Below, piece after piece: positions 45,347 through 52,047 of a stretch of DNA of 64,000 nucleotides. The stretch spans positions 1,488,001-1,552,000 of the forward strand of contig NZ_CP032823.1 in NCBI RefSeq assembly GCF_003660105.1, written 5' to 3'. This stretch comes from Aliarcobacter cryaerophilus ATCC 43158 (lineage in GTDB: Bacteria; Campylobacterota; Campylobacteria; Campylobacterales; Arcobacteraceae). The stretch's first letter is position 1, and every line of letters begins with the position of its first letter. The notes beneath the pieces are model-generated. The model saw only the letters and a program-made list of their open reading frames with translations. It did not search any database and was not told the DNA's origin. The position numbers and the translations under genes are program-made.

Positions 45347-45897
45347 ATTTCTAACACCGCATACACAGAAGTTTTCTCTTGCATTTTTGCTTTTCCAGGT
45401 AAAATAGAGAAATTTAAAATAAAACAAGCCTCTACTAAAGTAGCATCTAATTTCTCTATTAAATTAGCTGCTGCTACTGCTGTTCCACCACTTACAACCA
45501 AATCATCTATTAAAAGAACTTTTGATTTCTTAATATCTCTAAAAGCATCAAAATGAACTTCAACCTCATCAAATCCATACTCAAGTTCATACTTTTCACA
45601 TAAAGTTGTACTTGGAAGTTTTCCTTTTTTTCGTATTGGTACAAAACCAATTTTTAGTCTTGAAGCAAGAGCTGCTCCAAATAAAAATCCTCTTGCTTCA
45701 ATTCCTGCTATAAAATCTAAATTATATTTTTTATATCTATCTTCAAGATGGTTCATAAGTAGTTCAAATGCATCTTTATTGTTTAAAAGTGTTGTAATAT
45801 CTTTAAAGCTAATACCAAGTTTTGGAAAATCCTCAACTGTTCTTATAGAGTCTAATAAAACCTTTTTTTCGCCATCTGTTAAAATATCTTTATTCAA
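45343..45897 (-). CDS. apt: Adenine phosphoribosyltransferase
   Basis: A 184-residue salvage enzyme converting adenine and PRPP to AMP. The sequence has [42 protein letters not shown] and the PRPP loop [17 protein letters not shown]. Length fits the family. It is the first gene of a minus-strand series and its stop overlaps trpB by 4 bases. Confidence 0.95.
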
Positions 45898-45947
45898 AGT
45901 TTTCCCTTTTATATTGAAAATCGAATTATTTTAGCTAAAATAAAATT

Positions 45948-46787
45948 ATGTTACAGTTTAAAATCAAACTATTTAAGAATTTTATAAAAATTTTATTAAC
46001 ACTTTTTCTTTTTGTAAATTTTGCTTTTGCATTAAATTTACAAAAACCTTCAAATTATAAAGATTCTATTGATATTTCAAATTGGTATATGAGTGAAAAA
46101 CTAGATGGTATTAGAGCATATTGGGATGGAAAAGAGTTATTTACAAAAAACAGAAATAAAATATTTGCTCCCTCTTGGTTTACAAAAGATTTTCCACCAT
46201 TTGCTCTTGATGGTGAGTTATGGACAAAAAGAGGTGATTTTGAAAATATTCAAAGCATAGTTTTAAGCCAACAAGAGTCACAAAATTGGGAAAAGATAAC
46301 TTACAATATTTTTGAAATTCCAAATGCAAATGGAAATTTTAAAAATAGATTAGATTTTTTACAAAGCTATTTAGATACAAATCCAAGTATATATATAAAA
46401 ATTATTCCTCAAATAGTTAGTAAAGATAAAAATCATTTAGATAGCTTTTTGCAAGAACTCTTAAAAAATGGCGCAGAAGGTGTGATTATAAAAAATCCAA
46501 ATTTAGCTTATGAAACTGGAAGAACTACAAACTCTTTAAAAGTAAAAGAGTTTTTTGATGATGAAGGAAAAGTTATTTCACATAATTTTAATAAAGATGG
46601 TTCATTTAAAAGTTTAAAAATAGAATTAAAAAACAAAACTACTTTTAACTTAGGTGGTGGATTTACACAAAAAGATAGATTAAATCCACCAAAGATTGGA
46701 GAGTTTGTAACTTTTAAATACTATGGTTTTACAAAAAATGGTAAACCAAAATTTGCTTCATTTTTAAGAGTTAGAGAAATTGAATAG
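45948..46787 (+). CDS. Exported ATP-dependent DNA ligase
   Basis: A 279-residue minimal ATP-dependent ligase. Residues 1-28 form a signal peptide (hydrophobic, ending FAFA), so the enzyme is probably periplasmic. Motif I is EKLDGIRAYWD with the nucleotidylated Lys51. ALDGELW (motif III), EGVIIKNP (motif IV) and SLKVKEF (motif V) follow, then an OB-fold. Similar Lig proteins occur in Campylobacter, Haemophilus, Neisseria and Vibrio, where links to uptake of foreign DNA have been proposed. It is additional to the usual NAD-dependent replicative ligase, which is not in this window. Confidence 0.9.
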   Translation: MLQFKIKLFKNFIKILLTLFLFVNFAFALNLQKPSNYKDSIDISNWYMSEKLDGIRAYWDGKELFTKNRNKIFAPSWFTKDFPPFALDGELWTKRGDFENIQSIVLSQQESQNWEKITYNIFEIPNANGNFKNRLDFLQSYLDTNPSIYIKIIPQIVSKDKNHLDSFLQELLKNGAEGVIIKNPNLAYETGRTTNSLKVKEFFDDEGKVISHNFNKDGSFKSLKIELKNKTTFNLGGGFTQKDRLNPPKIGEFVTFKYYGFTKNGKPKFASFLRVREIE

Positions 46788-46790
46788 CAT

Positions 46791-46958
46791 TTAATCATCA
46801 GTTGCTTCGTGAATTGATTTTTTTACATCTTTTACAACTTCAGTTGTTGTCTCTTTTGTAGCTTTCCAAGCTGTTTTGCTATCTTGTTTTACTCCACTCC
46901 AAGTTGCACAAGCTTGAAAAAATATTATAAATATTAATAATAATATACTTTTAAGCAT
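46791..46958 (-). CDS. Small 55-residue lipoprotein
   Basis: A short ORF with a good ribosome site (AAAGGATAAGAG before the ATG at 46958). It encodes a Lys-containing N-terminus, a hydrophobic run of Leu, Ile and Phe, and a lipobox-like FFQAC (Cys17). A soluble part rich in Thr, Lys and Trp follows, with a repeated helical pattern (TAWKATKETTTEVVKDVKKS). The entericidin-like size and layout suggest a lipid-anchored envelope peptide. It ends next to the converging ligase gene. Confidence 0.65.
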   Translation of the reverse strand: MLKSILLLIFIIFFQACATWSGVKQDSKTAWKATKETTTEVVKDVKKSIHEATDD

Positions 46959-47075
46959 CTCTTATCCTTTTATATAAATAAACTTTCAAATAAATTTATA
47001 GCAAAATTTTGTATCAAATAAGATTAAATTTATTTTGGTACAATTTCCCAAAAATTAGCCAATTTAAGGATTTTT

Positions 47076-48227
47076 ATGAATAAAAGTTTAGAAACTATGC
47101 TTTGCCATTTAAAAGATTTTGCACCTTTTAAAGAGCCTACAAACTCTTCACACTTTCCAATATATAACACAGCAACTTTTGATTTAAAAAACCAAAATGG
47201 CGATAAAACATATGACTATACAAGAAGTGATAATCCAACAAGAGCTACTTTAGAAAACTTTTTTACTTTTGCAGAAAATGGCTATGGAGCTGTTTGTACT
47301 CATACAGGAATAGGAGCTGTATCTTTATTATTTGAAACTCTTTTAAAAGCAAACTCATCTATTTTGGTTGAAGCTGATTGTTATGGCGGAACTTTTAGGC
47401 TTTTAAAAGTTTTTAAAGAAAAATATAATATTAATGTAAACTTTACAGATTTTACAGACTTAAATATGCTTGAACATATTTTAAAAACAAATAATATAGA
47501 TTTAGTTCTTTGTGAAAGTCCTACAAATCCAGGCTTAAAAATAATAGATTTAAAAGAGATATCAAAACTTTGTAAAGCACATAACTCTCTTTTTGCGGTT
47601 GATAACTCACTTGCAACTTTTATTAGCCAAAAACCTCTTGATTTAGGAGCTGATTTTTCACTGTTTTCTACAACTAAATTTATTAGTGGTCATGGAAGTG
47701 TAATTGCAGGTGCAATTGTTGCAAAAGATAAAGAGTGGGCAGATAAACTTCACTATTACTCAAATGCTTTAGGAAGAAACCAAAATCCTCTTGATGTACA
47801 TCTAATATCACTTGGAATTAGTAGCTTAAAAGTTAGAATGAAAGCTAGTGAGAAATTAGCAAAAAAATTTGCTAAATGGCTTGAAGAACAAGATTTTATA
47901 GAAAAAGTAACATTTCCTGCTTTAAAATCACATCCCCAAAGAGCTTTGGCAAAAAAACAGATGAAGATAATCCCTAGTGTTTTTTGTGCTGATTTTAAAA
48001 GCATTGAACTAGCAGAAAAATTTATAGAAAATGCAAAAATATTTGGAGAAAAATGCTCTTTTGGAAGTGCTGATAGTAGAGTTGAAATACCTTCTAAAAT
48101 ATCTCATGCTTCTTTTTCAAAAGATGAGTTAAAAGCAATTGGAATATCTGATAGTACAGTTAGATTCTCTATTGGATTTGAGAATTTAAAAGATTTAAAA
48201 GAGGATTTGTTAGAAGCTATAAAATGA
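47076..48227 (+). CDS. Cystathionine gamma-synthase/beta-lyase family PLP enzyme
   Basis: A 383-residue member of the Cys/Met metabolism PLP family. TRSDNPTRATLE and the PLP Lys201 in LFSTTKFISGHGSVIAG are clear, with CESPTNPGLKIIDL and AVDNSLATFISQ between. Full length for a cystathionine gamma-synthase or beta-lyase; the exact reaction is not decided. It starts an operon of four genes with a 4-base overlap into a second, unusual family member. TACAAT at 47039-47044 gives a promoter. Confidence 0.85.
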   Translation: MNKSLETMLCHLKDFAPFKEPTNSSHFPIYNTATFDLKNQNGDKTYDYTRSDNPTRATLENFFTFAENGYGAVCTHTGIGAVSLLFETLLKANSSILVEADCYGGTFRLLKVFKEKYNINVNFTDFTDLNMLEHILKTNNIDLVLCESPTNPGLKIIDLKEISKLCKAHNSLFAVDNSLATFISQKPLDLGADFSLFSTTKFISGHGSVIAGAIVAKDKEWADKLHYYSNALGRNQNPLDVHLISLGISSLKVRMKASEKLAKKFAKWLEEQDFIEKVTFPALKSHPQRALAKKQMKIIPSVFCADFKSIELAEKFIENAKIFGEKCSFGSADSRVEIPSKISHASFSKDELKAIGISDSTVRFSIGFENLKDLKEDLLEAIK

Positions 48228-49723
48228 TAATAAACTCTATTTTTAAGCCAATTTATTGTGGAAAAACTTTACCAGAAAATAATATTCATGCTGTTTCCAC
48301 AAGTATGCCAACACTTCAAGATGTAATAGATTATGAAGAACAAACACCAGAAATTTTAGAAAAAATTACAGTTGCATATCCTAGATTTATAGTTCATCCA
48401 TATCTTAAAAAACTAGCAATTTATTTAAAAACAAAATATAAAGTTAGTGATAAATATGAACTTATTCTTCTTAGTAGTAAAAAGGCAGTAAACGTTGTAA
48501 GTTCGAGATTTTATATAAATAATCCCATAGATATTGATGAAGATTTTGGTGTAATTATGGTTTTAAAAGGAAGACAGTACAAAAAAGTTTTAAAATTTAT
48601 TCAACATGTTGGTTACAATTTATCTTCAAGATTAGCTGAAAATTATTTGTATAATATAGGAATAATTTCAAGTATTCATCAAGAAGAGCTTGCAGATGAA
48701 ACAAAAGCAAAAGATATTCTAATTTCAACTTTATCAAACGCCTATAATCAACCCCTTAAAAATATATGCTTAAGCCCTTCAGGAATGAATGCAATGTATT
48801 GTGTTTTAAAAGGAATTAAAAATATTCAAGCAAAAAATGGAAGAACTATTTTAGTTCAACTAGGATGGTTATATCTTGATACCATGAACATTATAAATCA
48901 CTATTTTGAAGAGAGTAAAATTTTTCATGATATTACAAATCTTGATAGTTTTGAAGAGTTTTTAAAAGAAAATGGATTAAAAGTTTCAGCAATAGTTACA
49001 GAAATTCCTACAAATCCACTTATACAAACAGTTGATTTAGAAAAACTTAAAAATTTATGCAAAAAGTATAATATTCCTTTGGTTATAGACTCTACTTTTG
49101 CAACTCCATATAATCTAAATTTAGACTCATATGCTGATATTTATGTGGAGTCTTTAACAAAATTTGCTTGTGGAAATGCAGATGTTTTAATGGGTGCTAT
49201 TATTTTAAATGAAAATTCAAAAATATCCCATATTTCTCAAGAATTTTTTAAACATTGTGATGAGCCATATATAAAAGATATTCAAAGATTGGCTTTAGAG
49301 ATAAAAGATTATAAATCAAGAGTTAAAAAAATATCTTCAAATACAAAAAAGTTAGTTGAATATTTTCAAAAATCATCATATATTGACAAGATTTTTTACT
49401 GTTTAAGTCCAAATTATAAAAAGAATTATGAAAAACTTATGATTGATGAAAATAGTCTATGTGGAATAATATCACTTACATTTAAAAAAGATTTTCAAAA
49501 AGTTTATGATAGTTTAAACTTTCCAAAAGGTCCAAGCCTTGGAACTGAGTTTACACTTTTAATGCCATACACTTATTTGGCACATTATGATTTAATAGGA
49601 AGTAAAGAAGGTAAAGAGTTTTTAGAAAAGATAAATCTTCCTATAAATCTTCTTAGAATCTCTGTTGGAGTTGAAAATATAGAAGAGATAAAAAAAGAGT
49701 TTGATAAATTAAATACTATTTAA
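48224..49723 (+). CDS. Long cystathionine gamma-synthase homologue of fungal type
   Basis: A 499-residue PLP protein whose C-terminal part (about 185-499) is a transsulfuration fold with PLP Lys313 in VESLTKFACGNADVLMG, TEIPTNPLIQTVDL and VIDSTFATPYN. The N-terminal 180 residues are an additional domain. It opens HAVSTSMPTLQDVIDYEE and continues to AYPRFIVHPY, which recalls fungal Str2-type cystathionine gamma-synthases (HAVSVSLPTW...YEEG...GYPRFF). Bacterial CGS normally lack this part. It overlaps the preceding PLP gene by 4 bases; the two may work in sequence in methionine or cysteine metabolism. Confidence 0.75.
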   Translation: MIINSIFKPIYCGKTLPENNIHAVSTSMPTLQDVIDYEEQTPEILEKITVAYPRFIVHPYLKKLAIYLKTKYKVSDKYELILLSSKKAVNVVSSRFYINNPIDIDEDFGVIMVLKGRQYKKVLKFIQHVGYNLSSRLAENYLYNIGIISSIHQEELADETKAKDILISTLSNAYNQPLKNICLSPSGMNAMYCVLKGIKNIQAKNGRTILVQLGWLYLDTMNIINHYFEESKIFHDITNLDSFEEFLKENGLKVSAIVTEIPTNPLIQTVDLEKLKNLCKKYNIPLVIDSTFATPYNLNLDSYADIYVESLTKFACGNADVLMGAIILNENSKISHISQEFFKHCDEPYIKDIQRLALEIKDYKSRVKKISSNTKKLVEYFQKSSYIDKIFYCLSPNYKKNYEKLMIDENSLCGIISLTFKKDFQKVYDSLNFPKGPSLGTEFTLLMPYTYLAHYDLIGSKEGKEFLEKINLPINLLRISVGVENIEEIKKEFDKLNTI

Positions 49724-49737
49724 GGTTTAGAAAAGAG

Positions 49738-50298
49738 ATGATAAAACAAGCAGATAAAAACAATATTAATAATATTTCAAGACTAATTTATGATGCAATT
49801 CACGACATTGCAAATACATTAACAGGTGAAAACGAAGAGAAAAAAATCCTTGAGACTTTAGATTTATATGTAAAAATGGATATAAATAGATTGAGTTACA
49901 AAAATATTTGGGTTTATGAGCTAGATAATAACAATATTGCGTTAATAATTGCCTATAATTCAAATGATATAAAAAAGCTAGATTCTCCAATACTTGAACA
50001 CTTAAAAACAAAAAATATTTTTTTAGACTCTTTTGAAAAAGAGTGCTTTAAAGATGAGTTTTATATAGATACAGTTAGTGTTCTAAAAGATTTTCAAGGT
50101 AATGGAATAGCAAAAGAGTTATTTATATTTATTGAAGATAAAGCAAAAGAGCTAGGATTTAAAAAAATTTCACTTTTGGTTGATTTTGAAAATTTAAAAG
50201 CATTGGCTTTATATGAAAAATTAGGCTTTGAAAAAAATGAGATACTTAAAGTTTCAGGAAGCAATTTCTATCATATGATAAAAAAATTAGATTTTTAA
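49738..50298 (+). CDS. GNAT family N-acetyltransferase
   Basis: A 186-residue acetyltransferase-like protein. The acetyl-CoA signature is seen in TVSVLKDFQGNGIAKELFIFIEDKAKELG (the Q-G-x-G-I-A pyrophosphate loop), and ALALYEKLGFEKNEI is the typical GNAT C-terminal helix. The start ATG follows AAAAGAG, 14 bases after the PLP gene. Its substrate is unknown. In an operon with transsulfuration enzymes it might acetylate an amino acid or amine intermediate. Confidence 0.75.
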   Translation: MIKQADKNNINNISRLIYDAIHDIANTLTGENEEKKILETLDLYVKMDINRLSYKNIWVYELDNNNIALIIAYNSNDIKKLDSPILEHLKTKNIFLDSFEKECFKDEFYIDTVSVLKDFQGNGIAKELFIFIEDKAKELGFKKISLLVDFENLKALALYEKLGFEKNEILKVSGSNFYHMIKKLDF

Positions 50299-50309
50299 AA
50301 GGAAAAATT

Positions 50310-50630
50310 ATGTCAAAAAAAATATATTGTATAGCTTCATTTGAAGCAAAAGAAGGTTTAAACGAAGAGTTATTTAAAGTATTACAATCTTTAGAACCAC
50401 AAACTATAAGAGAAGATGGTTGTATTCAATATATTGTCACAAAACATATAAGTCATCCAAATGCAACTGGGAAAAGTTTTCCAATAGTATTTAATGAAAT
50501 TTGGGAATCAAAAGAGGCTTTTGAGCTTCACTGCAATAAACCTTATATAAAAGAGTTTTTTCATAAACATTGTGTTTTGGAAGATGGATTTGTAAAGGAT
50601 TTTAATGTTTGTGTTTATAGTGATGAGTAA
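50310..50630 (+). CDS. Antibiotic biosynthesis monooxygenase (ABM) domain protein
   Basis: A 106-residue protein of the dimeric alpha/beta barrel type. CIASFEAKEGLNEELFKVLQSLEPQTIREDGCIQY at the N-terminus and FNEIWESKEAFELHCNKPYIKEF in the middle match small quinol-type monooxygenases (YgiN-like). It starts 11 bases after the acetyltransferase gene, ending the operon just before a terminator. Enzyme activity is plausible but its substrate is unknown. Confidence 0.75.
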   Translation: MSKKIYCIASFEAKEGLNEELFKVLQSLEPQTIREDGCIQYIVTKHISHPNATGKSFPIVFNEIWESKEAFELHCNKPYIKEFFHKHCVLEDGFVKDFNVCVYSDE

Positions 50631-50645
50631 GCATATGAAAAGTAA

Positions 50646-50673
50646 AAAATAGAGCTGTTATAAGCTCTATTTT
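50646..50673. terminator. Bidirectional terminator hairpin
   Basis: AAAATAGAGCT (50646-50656) pairs with AGCTCTATTTT (50663-50673) with a 6-base loop, between the PLP operon and the converging znuA gene. Confidence 0.8.
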
Positions 50674-50679
50674 GAAAAA

Positions 50680-51564
50680 TCATTTATAACTTTTTGATAT
50701 CTCTTTTGCAACAAAAAGTAAATTATTTTTCCAGTCATCACTAAGTGGATCAATAGAAACTACATTTGCACCAATATTTTGTGAAATTGTTTTTGCACTT
50801 TTTTGTGAAAATTGAGGTGATACAAATACTATTTTTATATTATGTTTTTTTGCTTCTTCTACTAATTCAAGTAACTCATTTGGTTTTGGCTCTTTTCCTT
50901 CAATCTCAATAGAGATTTGTTCAACATCATACCTTGCAGCAAAATATCCCCAAGATGGGTGAAAAACCATAAAAGCAGAATCTTTATGTGGTTCTAAAAT
51001 ATTTTTTATTTCTTTATTTAAACTATCAAGCTCATTTAAAAAATCTTCATAATTAGCTTTATAAAAATCACTATTTGGTTCATCTATTTTAACCATTGCT
51101 TCATAAATATTTTTTGCTTGAGTTTTTACACTTATTGGGTCTAACCAAATGTGAGGATCAAGTCCATCTTCTCCATGAGAGTGTTTATCATGCGAATGAT
51201 TATCGTGCTTATGTTCATCCTCATGGTGAGTGTGCTCAAGCATTGCAATTTTTTCTACTCCAACAGTTGTATCAATAAAAATTGTATTTTTTGCATTTTG
51301 CTTGAATCTCTTAATCCAAGCTTTTTCACTAGAATCACCTATCATAAAATATGCCTTTGAATTACCCAAAGATTTCATTTGAGATGCTTTTGGTTCAAAA
51401 TTATGAGGAGAACTCCCTGGTTTTACCATAACATTAATATCAAATTTATCTTTTACTATTTTTTCTACAAAATATTTTTGTGGTAAAATTGTAACTGTTA
51501 ACTCTTGCTTTGAAGCAAATAAAATTGTTGTAAATAACATAAAAACTACTAAATAATTTCTCAT
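50680..51564 (-). CDS. znuA: Zinc ABC transporter substrate-binding protein
   Basis: A 294-residue periplasmic metal-binding protein. A signal peptide (about 1-17) is followed by the cluster A-1 fold with metal ligands His54 (GSSPHNFEP) and His138 (DPHIWLDP), the His of MVFHPSWGYFA and the Asp of SIDPLSDDW. A His/Asp-rich loop at 111-130 (THHEDEHKHDNHSHDKHSHG) is typical of zinc-specific ZnuA. No permease or ATPase gene lies next to it. It diverges from a Fur-family regulator across two palindromes. Confidence 0.9.
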   Translation of the reverse strand: MRNYLVVFMLFTTILFASKQELTVTILPQKYFVEKIVKDKFDINVMVKPGSSPHNFEPKASQMKSLGNSKAYFMIGDSSEKAWIKRFKQNAKNTIFIDTTVGVEKIAMLEHTHHEDEHKHDNHSHDKHSHGEDGLDPHIWLDPISVKTQAKNIYEAMVKIDEPNSDFYKANYEDFLNELDSLNKEIKNILEPHKDSAFMVFHPSWGYFAARYDVEQISIEIEGKEPKPNELLELVEEAKKHNIKIVFVSPQFSQKSAKTISQNIGANVVSIDPLSDDWKNNLLFVAKEISKSYK

Positions 51565-51590
51565 TTTTATCCTTTTTGTTTAGTGTATTA

Positions 51591-51605
51591 TGCAACTAGG
51601 TTGCA
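51591..51605. promoter_or_regulatory. Candidate Zur-type operator 1
   Basis: TGCAACTAGGTTGCA, an inverted repeat with 6-base arms (TGCAAC/GTTGCA), 27 bases ahead of the znuA start and overlapping its probable -10 region (CATAAT on the minus strand). Very similar to the palindrome at 51641. Confidence 0.65.
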
Positions 51606-51612
51606 AATTTTT

Positions 51613-51641
51613 TTGACATTCTAAACTTTTTATTCTTTAAT
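51613..51641 (+). promoter_or_regulatory. Promoter of the Fur-family regulator and downstream operon
   Basis: TTGACA (51613-51618), 17 bases, then TTTAAT (51636-51641). The -10 box touches the second palindrome, so a bound regulator would block transcription. Confidence 0.65.
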
Positions 51642-51655
51642 GCAACTTAGTAGCA
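51641..51655. promoter_or_regulatory. Candidate Zur-type operator 2
   Basis: TGCAACTTAGTAGCA, an imperfect inverted repeat sharing TGCAACT with the site at 51591. The sites are exactly 50 bases apart, close to five helical turns. It covers the start region of the regulator promoter. Confidence 0.65.
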
Positions 51656-51684
51656 CTTAATTAAATTTTAGTTAGAATAAATTT

Positions 51685-52047
51685 ATGATAAAAGAAAATT
51701 TTTCAAATATAAAACTTACAAGTGCCAGAAAATCTATCTTGGATATACTTATAAACTCAAGTAAACCATTAAGTTATGAAGATATAAAAGATAAAATATC
51801 TATGGATAAGGCAACTTTTTACCGAAATATCACAATTTTTGAAGAAGAAAACCTTATAAACTCTTTTGAATCAAATGATAAAAAAAGATATTTTGAAATA
51901 AAAGATATTGAGCATTCACACTTTATTTGCAACAACTGTTCAAATATTGAGTGTATTTTTGAAAAACCAAATTTTCTTTTACAAGATTATAAAATTGAAA
52001 ATATTATCCTAAAAGGAAAATGTAAGGAGTGCAATAAAAATGGGTAA
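51685..52047 (+). CDS. Fur family metal-responsive regulator (Zur-like)
   Basis: A 120-residue transcription factor. The winged helix (LTSARKSILDILINSSKPLSYEDI, then DKATFYRNITIFEEENLI) is followed by a dimerisation and metal region: EIKDIEHSHFICNNC (Cys82-x2-Cys85) and the second pair Cys113-x2-Cys116, a structural zinc site of Zur/Fur proteins. Divergence from znuA and the paired operators suggest zinc sensing and autoregulation. A Fe- or peroxide-responsive role cannot be excluded. It overlaps nhaA by 8 bases. Confidence 0.8.
   Translation: MIKENFSNIKLTSARKSILDILINSSKPLSYEDIKDKISMDKATFYRNITIFEEENLINSFESNDKKRYFEIKDIEHSHFICNNCSNIECIFEKPNFLLQDYKIENIILKGKCKECNKNG

Follow-up and report, generated by a model that had tools for sequence, protein, structure and literature searches.

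Which reactions do two neighbouring pyridoxal phosphate (PLP) enzymes of Aliarcobacter cryaerophilus catalyse, and do they serve methionine synthesis or a special sulfur metabolism? The question is raised by four genes, here called A to D, in a window of 64,000 nucleotides from strain ATCC 43158 (contig NZ_CP032823.1, forward-strand positions 1,488,001 to 1,552,000; coordinates below are those of the window). A first-pass annotation had read positions 47076-50630 as four same-strand open reading frames (ORFs), with the motif HAVSTSMPT...DYEE...YPRF and a lysine, Lys313 (in SLTKF), in the 499-residue protein B; the ORFs proved to be real and both features are present in B. A and B probably constitute a forward transsulfuration pair like yeast Str2 and Str3, in which B makes cystathionine and A cleaves it to homocysteine. 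Homology, fold, active-site residues, linkage and gene content of the pair are established by the comparisons that follow.

Two linked enzymes of the PF01053 family

A and B are PLP enzymes of Cys/Met metabolism (PF01053), as judged by Pfam scores above cut-off and by the presence of the PLP lysine. Cys_Met_Meta_PP matched A with E 9e-100 and 334 bits and B, in residues 182-494 only, with E 3e-37 and 129 bits (gathering cut-off 27). The first 192 residues of B, searched alone against Pfam, gave no match. In a 35-row alignment of B proteins H22, S27, P29, E38, Y52-P53-R54-F55 and K313 were invariant, the lysine being found in 35/35. YPRF might be an ordinary Y-x-R motif for the PLP phosphate, but this is not settled; SSR 134-136 would be an equal candidate.

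A sequence search of the PDB with B returned BesB at the top (E 6e-71, residues 10-495) and CndF next, and the likeness to BesB is, by sequence, far beyond chance. An AlphaFold2 model of B built from 35 homologues (mean predicted local distance difference test, pLDDT, 92; predicted template modelling score, pTM, 0.91) superposed on BesB with Z 51 and a root-mean-square deviation of 1.7 over 487 residues, at 30% identity. The same model gave Z 41 with fungal CndF (8zif; residues 63-499, 22% identity) and Z 37 with the Escherichia coli cystathionine gamma-synthase 1cs1, which aligned only from B residue 154. Since the alignment to 1cs1 starts there and that to BesB spans all of B, the whole long form is common to B and BesB. 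Foldseek with the model also placed the BesB and CndF families first.

The yeast Str2 sequence used here was a provisional one, not a database record. Compared by phmmer with this sequence, B gave 42.7 bits in the N-terminal domain and 125 bits in the PLP domain, with 28.5% identity over residues 140-485. The profile of the B family matched the N-terminal start motif of CndF weakly (11.4 bits), and B alone as query scored -0.4 bits over the same stretch. The earlier label of B as a fungal-type enzyme therefore stands in part: its N-terminal region is indeed common to the fungal enzymes, as the Str2 score and the CndF profile match indicate, but the nearest named family is BesB, which is not fungal. 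The Str2 link holds as far as these alignments go, the best evidence for it coming from the provisional sequence. In a tree with this one Str2 and part of CndF, both on long branches, B fell among the bacterial rows. From the first tree (92 rows) most genus loci and repeated copies had been left out; L141 and L142 are copies of loci L057 and L054. A 57-row tree was then made without these two, without the CndF part and without about one row in three (Opitutia).

Could B be BesB itself and convert a 4-chloro amino acid to one with a terminal alkyne? This identity is scarcely credible, and it was rejected. BesB (NF042918, E 2e-95) was the best NCBIfam match of B among the best 25 of 49 matches, but it reached only 320 bits against a cut-off of 800, while the two actinobacterial homologues reached 964 and 931 bits. 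Genes for BesC and BesD were not seen beside B, as no Bes model appeared for A, C or D among the matches listed. B also carries Tyr217 at the position of BesB Phe231, a site for which a BesB variant, F231Y, is on deposit. Of 117 rows (B-like ORFs spanning residues 25-480 with >150 bits; L050 and the split L055 left out), 113 had Tyr here and 4 had Phe; gene copies are repeated in this set, and the 35-row alignment is the cleaner count. The four with Phe were BesB, L110, its duplicate L146, and L111. Taken together with the deposited variant, these rows suggest that Phe at this position marks BesB, and the Tyr retained in B is in support of a methionine role. The two over-cut-off homologues with Phe lie within bes loci: L111 had matches over cut-off to BesD, BesC and BesB, and one to BesA with 655 of 750 bits, and L110 had BesC and BesB over cut-off, one further ORF tested giving no match. 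In the 57-row tree BesB, L110 and L111 formed one group (100/100), apart from B. L110 is from Streptomyces triculaminicus and L111 from Actinomadura sp. KC06; with their bes-type genes, both may make alkyne amino acids.

The coupling of B with a family member of normal length, suspected at first pass, was borne out by an ATGA overlap of the A stop and the B start and by conserved adjacency, and the overlap would be consistent with translational coupling. A was found beside B in 30/30 fetched loci of the genus and family, window included. Among four B-carrying relatives without a fetched locus, three had an A-like match adjoining B and one (G033) had none. In the best 80 loci of a wider scan, described below, A adjoined B in 17, i.e. 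12/15 campylobacterotal loci, some of which are the same contigs as in the genus and family set, and L053, L054, L056, L057 and L071, which are labelled as phyla other than Campylobacterota. A search of 397 Campylobacterota genomes gave A (E <= 1e-90) in 35 and B (E <= 1e-30) in 36; both were present in 35, B only in 1 (G360) and A only in 0. In the 57-row tree the A-linked B proteins and L048 stood on one side of a branch whose support, 84/58, was not strong.

The proposed pathway and its alternatives

The genome of the window contains a MetX-type protein. Such a protein was present in 53/60 genomes overall, always scoring below the model cut-off, as it did in the control genomes too, and in 11/12 B-carrying genomes examined. 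The window's genome also contains MetY (L001) next to cysK, the two scoring over the TIGR01326 and TIGR01139 cut-offs, respectively. PF01053 gave 10 matches in this genome, with 408 bits for MetY, 334 for A and 129 for B; the other 7 had <=35 bits, 4 of them over Pfam's low cut-off. In three Verrucomicrobiota genomes (G422, G423 and G424) the PF01053 members at E 1e-15 were B and one other only. Pathway neighbours over cut-off were metK beside A (L057), cysK beside A (L071) and metH 1.1 kb 3' of B (L048). The published annotation of Arcobacter thereius (PMC5495459) already included homoserine O-acetyltransferase as well as cystathionine gamma-synthase. MetX, MetY and A-B fit the layout of yeast Met2, Met17, Str3 and Str2, and the first-pass claim that the genes depart from a standard methionine pathway is not supported. 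The four PALP matches of the window's genome were cysK, a protein that reads as IlvA and two that read as TrpB, of which one lies in the window. As none of them is a cystathionine beta-synthase, a first enzyme of reverse transsulfuration did not turn up in this genome. A cystathionine beta-synthase model gave nothing over cut-off in 12 genomes and 14 controls, its only match in the window's genome lying at the place of cysK.

In the proposed route B, which belongs among the PLP enzymes of the long BesB/Str2 kind, would eliminate the acetate of O-acetyl-L-homoserine supplied by MetX to give a vinylglycine ketimine; gamma-substitution through this intermediate is described for CndF and cystathionine gamma-synthase in PMC10367076. 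B would then join L-cysteine, through its thiol, to the gamma carbon of the ketimine, yielding L-cystathionine, from which A would release L-homocysteine, pyruvate and ammonia by beta-elimination. The route would run parallel to direct sulfhydrylation by MetY, like Str2/Str3 beside Met17 in yeast. Chemistry at the gamma carbon is common to the named long-family members, and given the acetylhomoserine supply, the paired lyase and the nearby methionine genes of three loci, the simplest role for B is to make cystathionine; the same context makes cleavage of cystathionine to homocysteine the simplest role for A. What we infer is which substrates are used, in which order the two enzymes act and, most of all, that A is a beta-lyase.

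A shares Y48, R50, Y103, K201 and R363 with MetB and MetC of E. coli, and K201 was present in 43/43 distinct A proteins of the module. Its best PDB match was the cystathionine beta-lyase 8jui of Bacillus cereus (E 7e-72), and no NCBIfam model was over cut-off among the best 25 of 55 matches. D333-S334-R335 occurred in 43/43 distinct module proteins, while position 335 was Leu in 19/20 other PF01053 proteins of the fetched loci; where the A proteins have an invariant DSR, relatives show ESL or ESI. A belongs to an unnamed subfamily of PF01053 with this motif. For gamma-lyases a glutamate pair, E59 and E339 in human numbering, is described in PMC6073527. A is without both, having Asp at 47 and 333 in 43/43, although Asp keeps the charge and this is a mild test. 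The same source presents the Toxoplasma enzyme as a gamma-lyase whose variant N360S gains beta activity. D333 on its own was not kept as an indicator of beta-lyase activity, since MetC of E. coli and the B. cereus enzyme likewise have Glu there.

Several observations weigh against a beta-lyase role of A or against the pathway as a whole. The DSR motif was present in 0/5 named reference enzymes compared, and the NCBIfam models for cystathionine gamma-synthase and beta-lyase scored A alike, with 298 and 292 bits, both below cut-off. B has Phe443 at the usual position of an active-site Glu, by a gapless reading of the profile alignment to CndF. B was without adjacent A in 63/80 loci (L048, L050 and L055 of Campylobacterota and 60 others), in some of which B lies close to a contig end. 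MetY might provide homocysteine by itself. Threonine synthase was absent from the four PALP matches, so that this search can miss members. The genome of L057, an A-B locus, has a 459-residue frame with 483 of 510 bits to the cystathionine beta-synthase model and, on that similarity, may have a reverse transsulfuration route. Finally, a PatB-type C-S lyase, another possible beta-lyase, was over cut-off in 36/36 B-carrying Campylobacterota genomes (and found in 157/361 without B), and A may therefore be redundant or do something else.

These last counts bear on an account that we regard as unlikely but worth keeping in mind, namely that B is a true cystathionine gamma-synthase, A a lyase of other specificity or a gamma-type enzyme, and PatB or another lyase the enzyme that cleaves cystathionine. 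Apart from the constant presence of PatB, it is favoured by the occurrence of B without A, with PatB over cut-off in 5/6 B-only genomes of a 12-genome sample (not in G430), and by a DSR motif that is unique within the sample. However, A was never without B in the 397 genomes, as fits a partner in the same pathway, and PatB did not exceed the cut-off in any of the five A-plus-B genomes to which loci of other phyla had led; among the six A-plus-B genomes of the sample it was over cut-off in 1/6, the window's own. The seeming complementarity, PatB replacing A, was rejected as evidence for A as a beta-lyase, since the pattern fails in the wider Campylobacterota search.

The special sulfur compound of the first-pass annotation, for which genes C and D had been counted as part of the system, was not supported. 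Within about 1.5 kb on either side, the 30 genus and family loci had a GNAT gene in 9/30 and an ABM gene in 3/30. Flanks of this length miss distant copies, as a longer flank of L039 has a GNAT homologue about 2.9 kb 3' of B. With tblastn neither was found in the A-B loci L053, L054, L056, L057 and L071. GNAT and ABM are thus local extras, and the idea of a special compound is not supported by them. A broader form of it, in which the nucleophile that B puts on the gamma carbon of O-acetylhomoserine is not cysteine and A processes the product to a special amino acid, is improbable. It could draw on BesB (going by the name of the model) and on CndF, which forms a C-C bond (PMC10367076), as long-family members outside methionine synthesis, on MetY, whose presence makes a second homocysteine route not essential, and on the unusual motif in A. 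Yet B is present in 34/42 genomes of the window's family, which is more like core metabolism, and the pair recurs without GNAT or ABM and with metK, cysK or metH near in three loci. It is similarly doubtful that A-B is a dedicated unit in several phyla for a non-cysteine nucleophile, in which case DSR would mark a substrate foreign to known MetC enzymes and gamma-lyases.

Enzymes of this fold form their active sites where subunits meet. With the overlapping genes and the strict linkage of A to B, this could point to one hetero-oligomer with a single function, or the linkage to a pair working in the reverse direction. Both are very improbable; A and B each keep their own PLP lysine, B is without A in many loci, and the first enzyme of the reverse route was not found in the window's genome. 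A Str2/Str3-like forward pair is still the reading we prefer.

Spread of the long form and features of the locus

The first-pass view that the long form would be rare in bacteria did not survive a scan of genome contigs. An alignment including BesB gave at least 591 pattern matches, of which at least 192 encode a relative at E 1e-3, ordinary members of the family possibly among them. The best 80 loci were kept. In these the match to B is nearly whole-length, and at least six phyla are represented: Campylobacterota, Bacteroidota (Cloacibacterium and a metagenome-assembled genome, MAG, of Flavobacteriales), Ignavibacteriota (two MAGs), Spirochaetota (one MAG), Verrucomicrobiota (most rows, chiefly Opitutia) and Actinomycetota (two). 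L057 is from a MAG labelled Limnohabitans, and its B groups with Bacteroidota in the 57-row tree; the contig is perhaps misbinned. The 36 B-carrying Campylobacterota genomes comprise 34 of the 42 listed of the window's family and 2 of one other family. A plasmid search for B gave two Streptantibioticus cattleyicolor records only, at E 1e-20.

Neighbour clusters in the best 80 loci were mostly wrong-frame ORFs or genes of no apparent connection; a lysA-like gene before B in some Opitutales stands out. In L066 (3304-6077) and L069 (3786-6556), both Opitutia MAGs, the lysA-like gene, below cut-off in L066, overlaps the start of the B homologue, an arrangement that suggests joint expression. In L055 (5974-7490), a Sulfurospirillum MAG, B is split in two frames with transposase-like ORFs nearby and no A adjacent, and might be either a decaying copy or an assembly error.

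Features of the locus, in window coordinates
Feature	Position	Strand	Description
Gene A	47076..48227	+	383-residue PLP enzyme, PF01053, DSR subfamily; proposed cystathionine beta-lyase (Str3/MetC-like role)
Gene B	48224..49723	+	499-residue homologue of cystathionine gamma-synthase in its long form (BesB/Str2-like), with Lys313; proposed cystathionine gamma-synthase acting on O-acetylhomoserine
N-terminal part of B, residues 1-153	48224..48682	+	Common to BesB, unaligned to E. coli cystathionine gamma-synthase 1cs1; contains YPRF 52-55 and SSR 134-136
ATGA overlap, A stop and B start	48224..48227	+	From sequence and ORF ends
Gene C	49738..50298	+	186-residue GNAT acetyltransferase, 14 bases 3' of B; optional neighbour
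Gene D	50310..50630	+	106-residue ABM-domain protein, 11 bases 3' of C; optional neighbour
Terminator-like palindromic hairpin	50646..50673	-	Between D and an opposing ZnuA-like gene; weak scan

Pfam identified C as GNAT (E 1e-14) and D as ABM (E 4e-11). The hairpin comes from a weak scan, in which 2 were found against a mean of 1.3 in shuffled sequence. An RNA family search of positions 45500-51800 gave none at gathering score, and PADLOC gave no match for the four proteins A to D. Upstream of A-B, at 45948-46787, lies a gene for a protein resembling ATP-dependent DNA ligases (Pfam), with an apparent signal peptide.

A literature search, with subscription journals mostly outside its reach, found no publication on a bacterial Str2-type pair. 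Likely we are dealing with a somewhat unusual but widespread enzyme form in an ordinary pathway; of greatest remaining interest is the unnamed partner subfamily A, in Campylobacterota found only together with B. Cystathionine gamma-synthase of the long fungal type is widespread in bacteria as well, and BesB as best NCBIfam match invites a wrong name for these enzymes. Tyr versus Phe at BesB position 231 offers a residue contrast for how a methionine enzyme became an alkyne maker.

Comparison with known systems

BesB (9aua, 9aub), a 4-chloro amino acid dechlorinase of propargylglycine synthesis, shares homology with B over the whole length in sequence and fold. B differs from it in having Tyr217 for Phe231, in the absence of bes genes seen adjacent, in its 320 of 800 bits and in its separate tree group. 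CndF, a fungal gamma-substituting enzyme, resembles B in fold (Z 41) and, weakly, in the N-terminal motif, but it is only 22% identical to B and serves fungal specialised metabolism (PMC10367076). E. coli MetB and MetC have the same fold and catalytic lysine, and their two reactions are those proposed for A-B; MetB differs in that 1cs1 aligns only from B residue 154, and A is 29% identical to MetB.

The closest parallel to the proposed pathway is yeast Str2/Str3. The formation of cystathionine from O-acetylhomoserine and cysteine by Str2p, and the roles of Str2p and Str3p in yeast, are described in PMC11506715. Like B, Str2 is of the long form, with HAVS...YPRF in the N-terminal part and KGPSLGT near the C-terminus, going by the provisional sequence. 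Expected substrates of both systems are O-acetylhomoserine and cysteine, and in both a lyase partner stands beside Met17 or MetY. A-B differs in being bacterial, in its overlapping genes and in the DSR motif of A.

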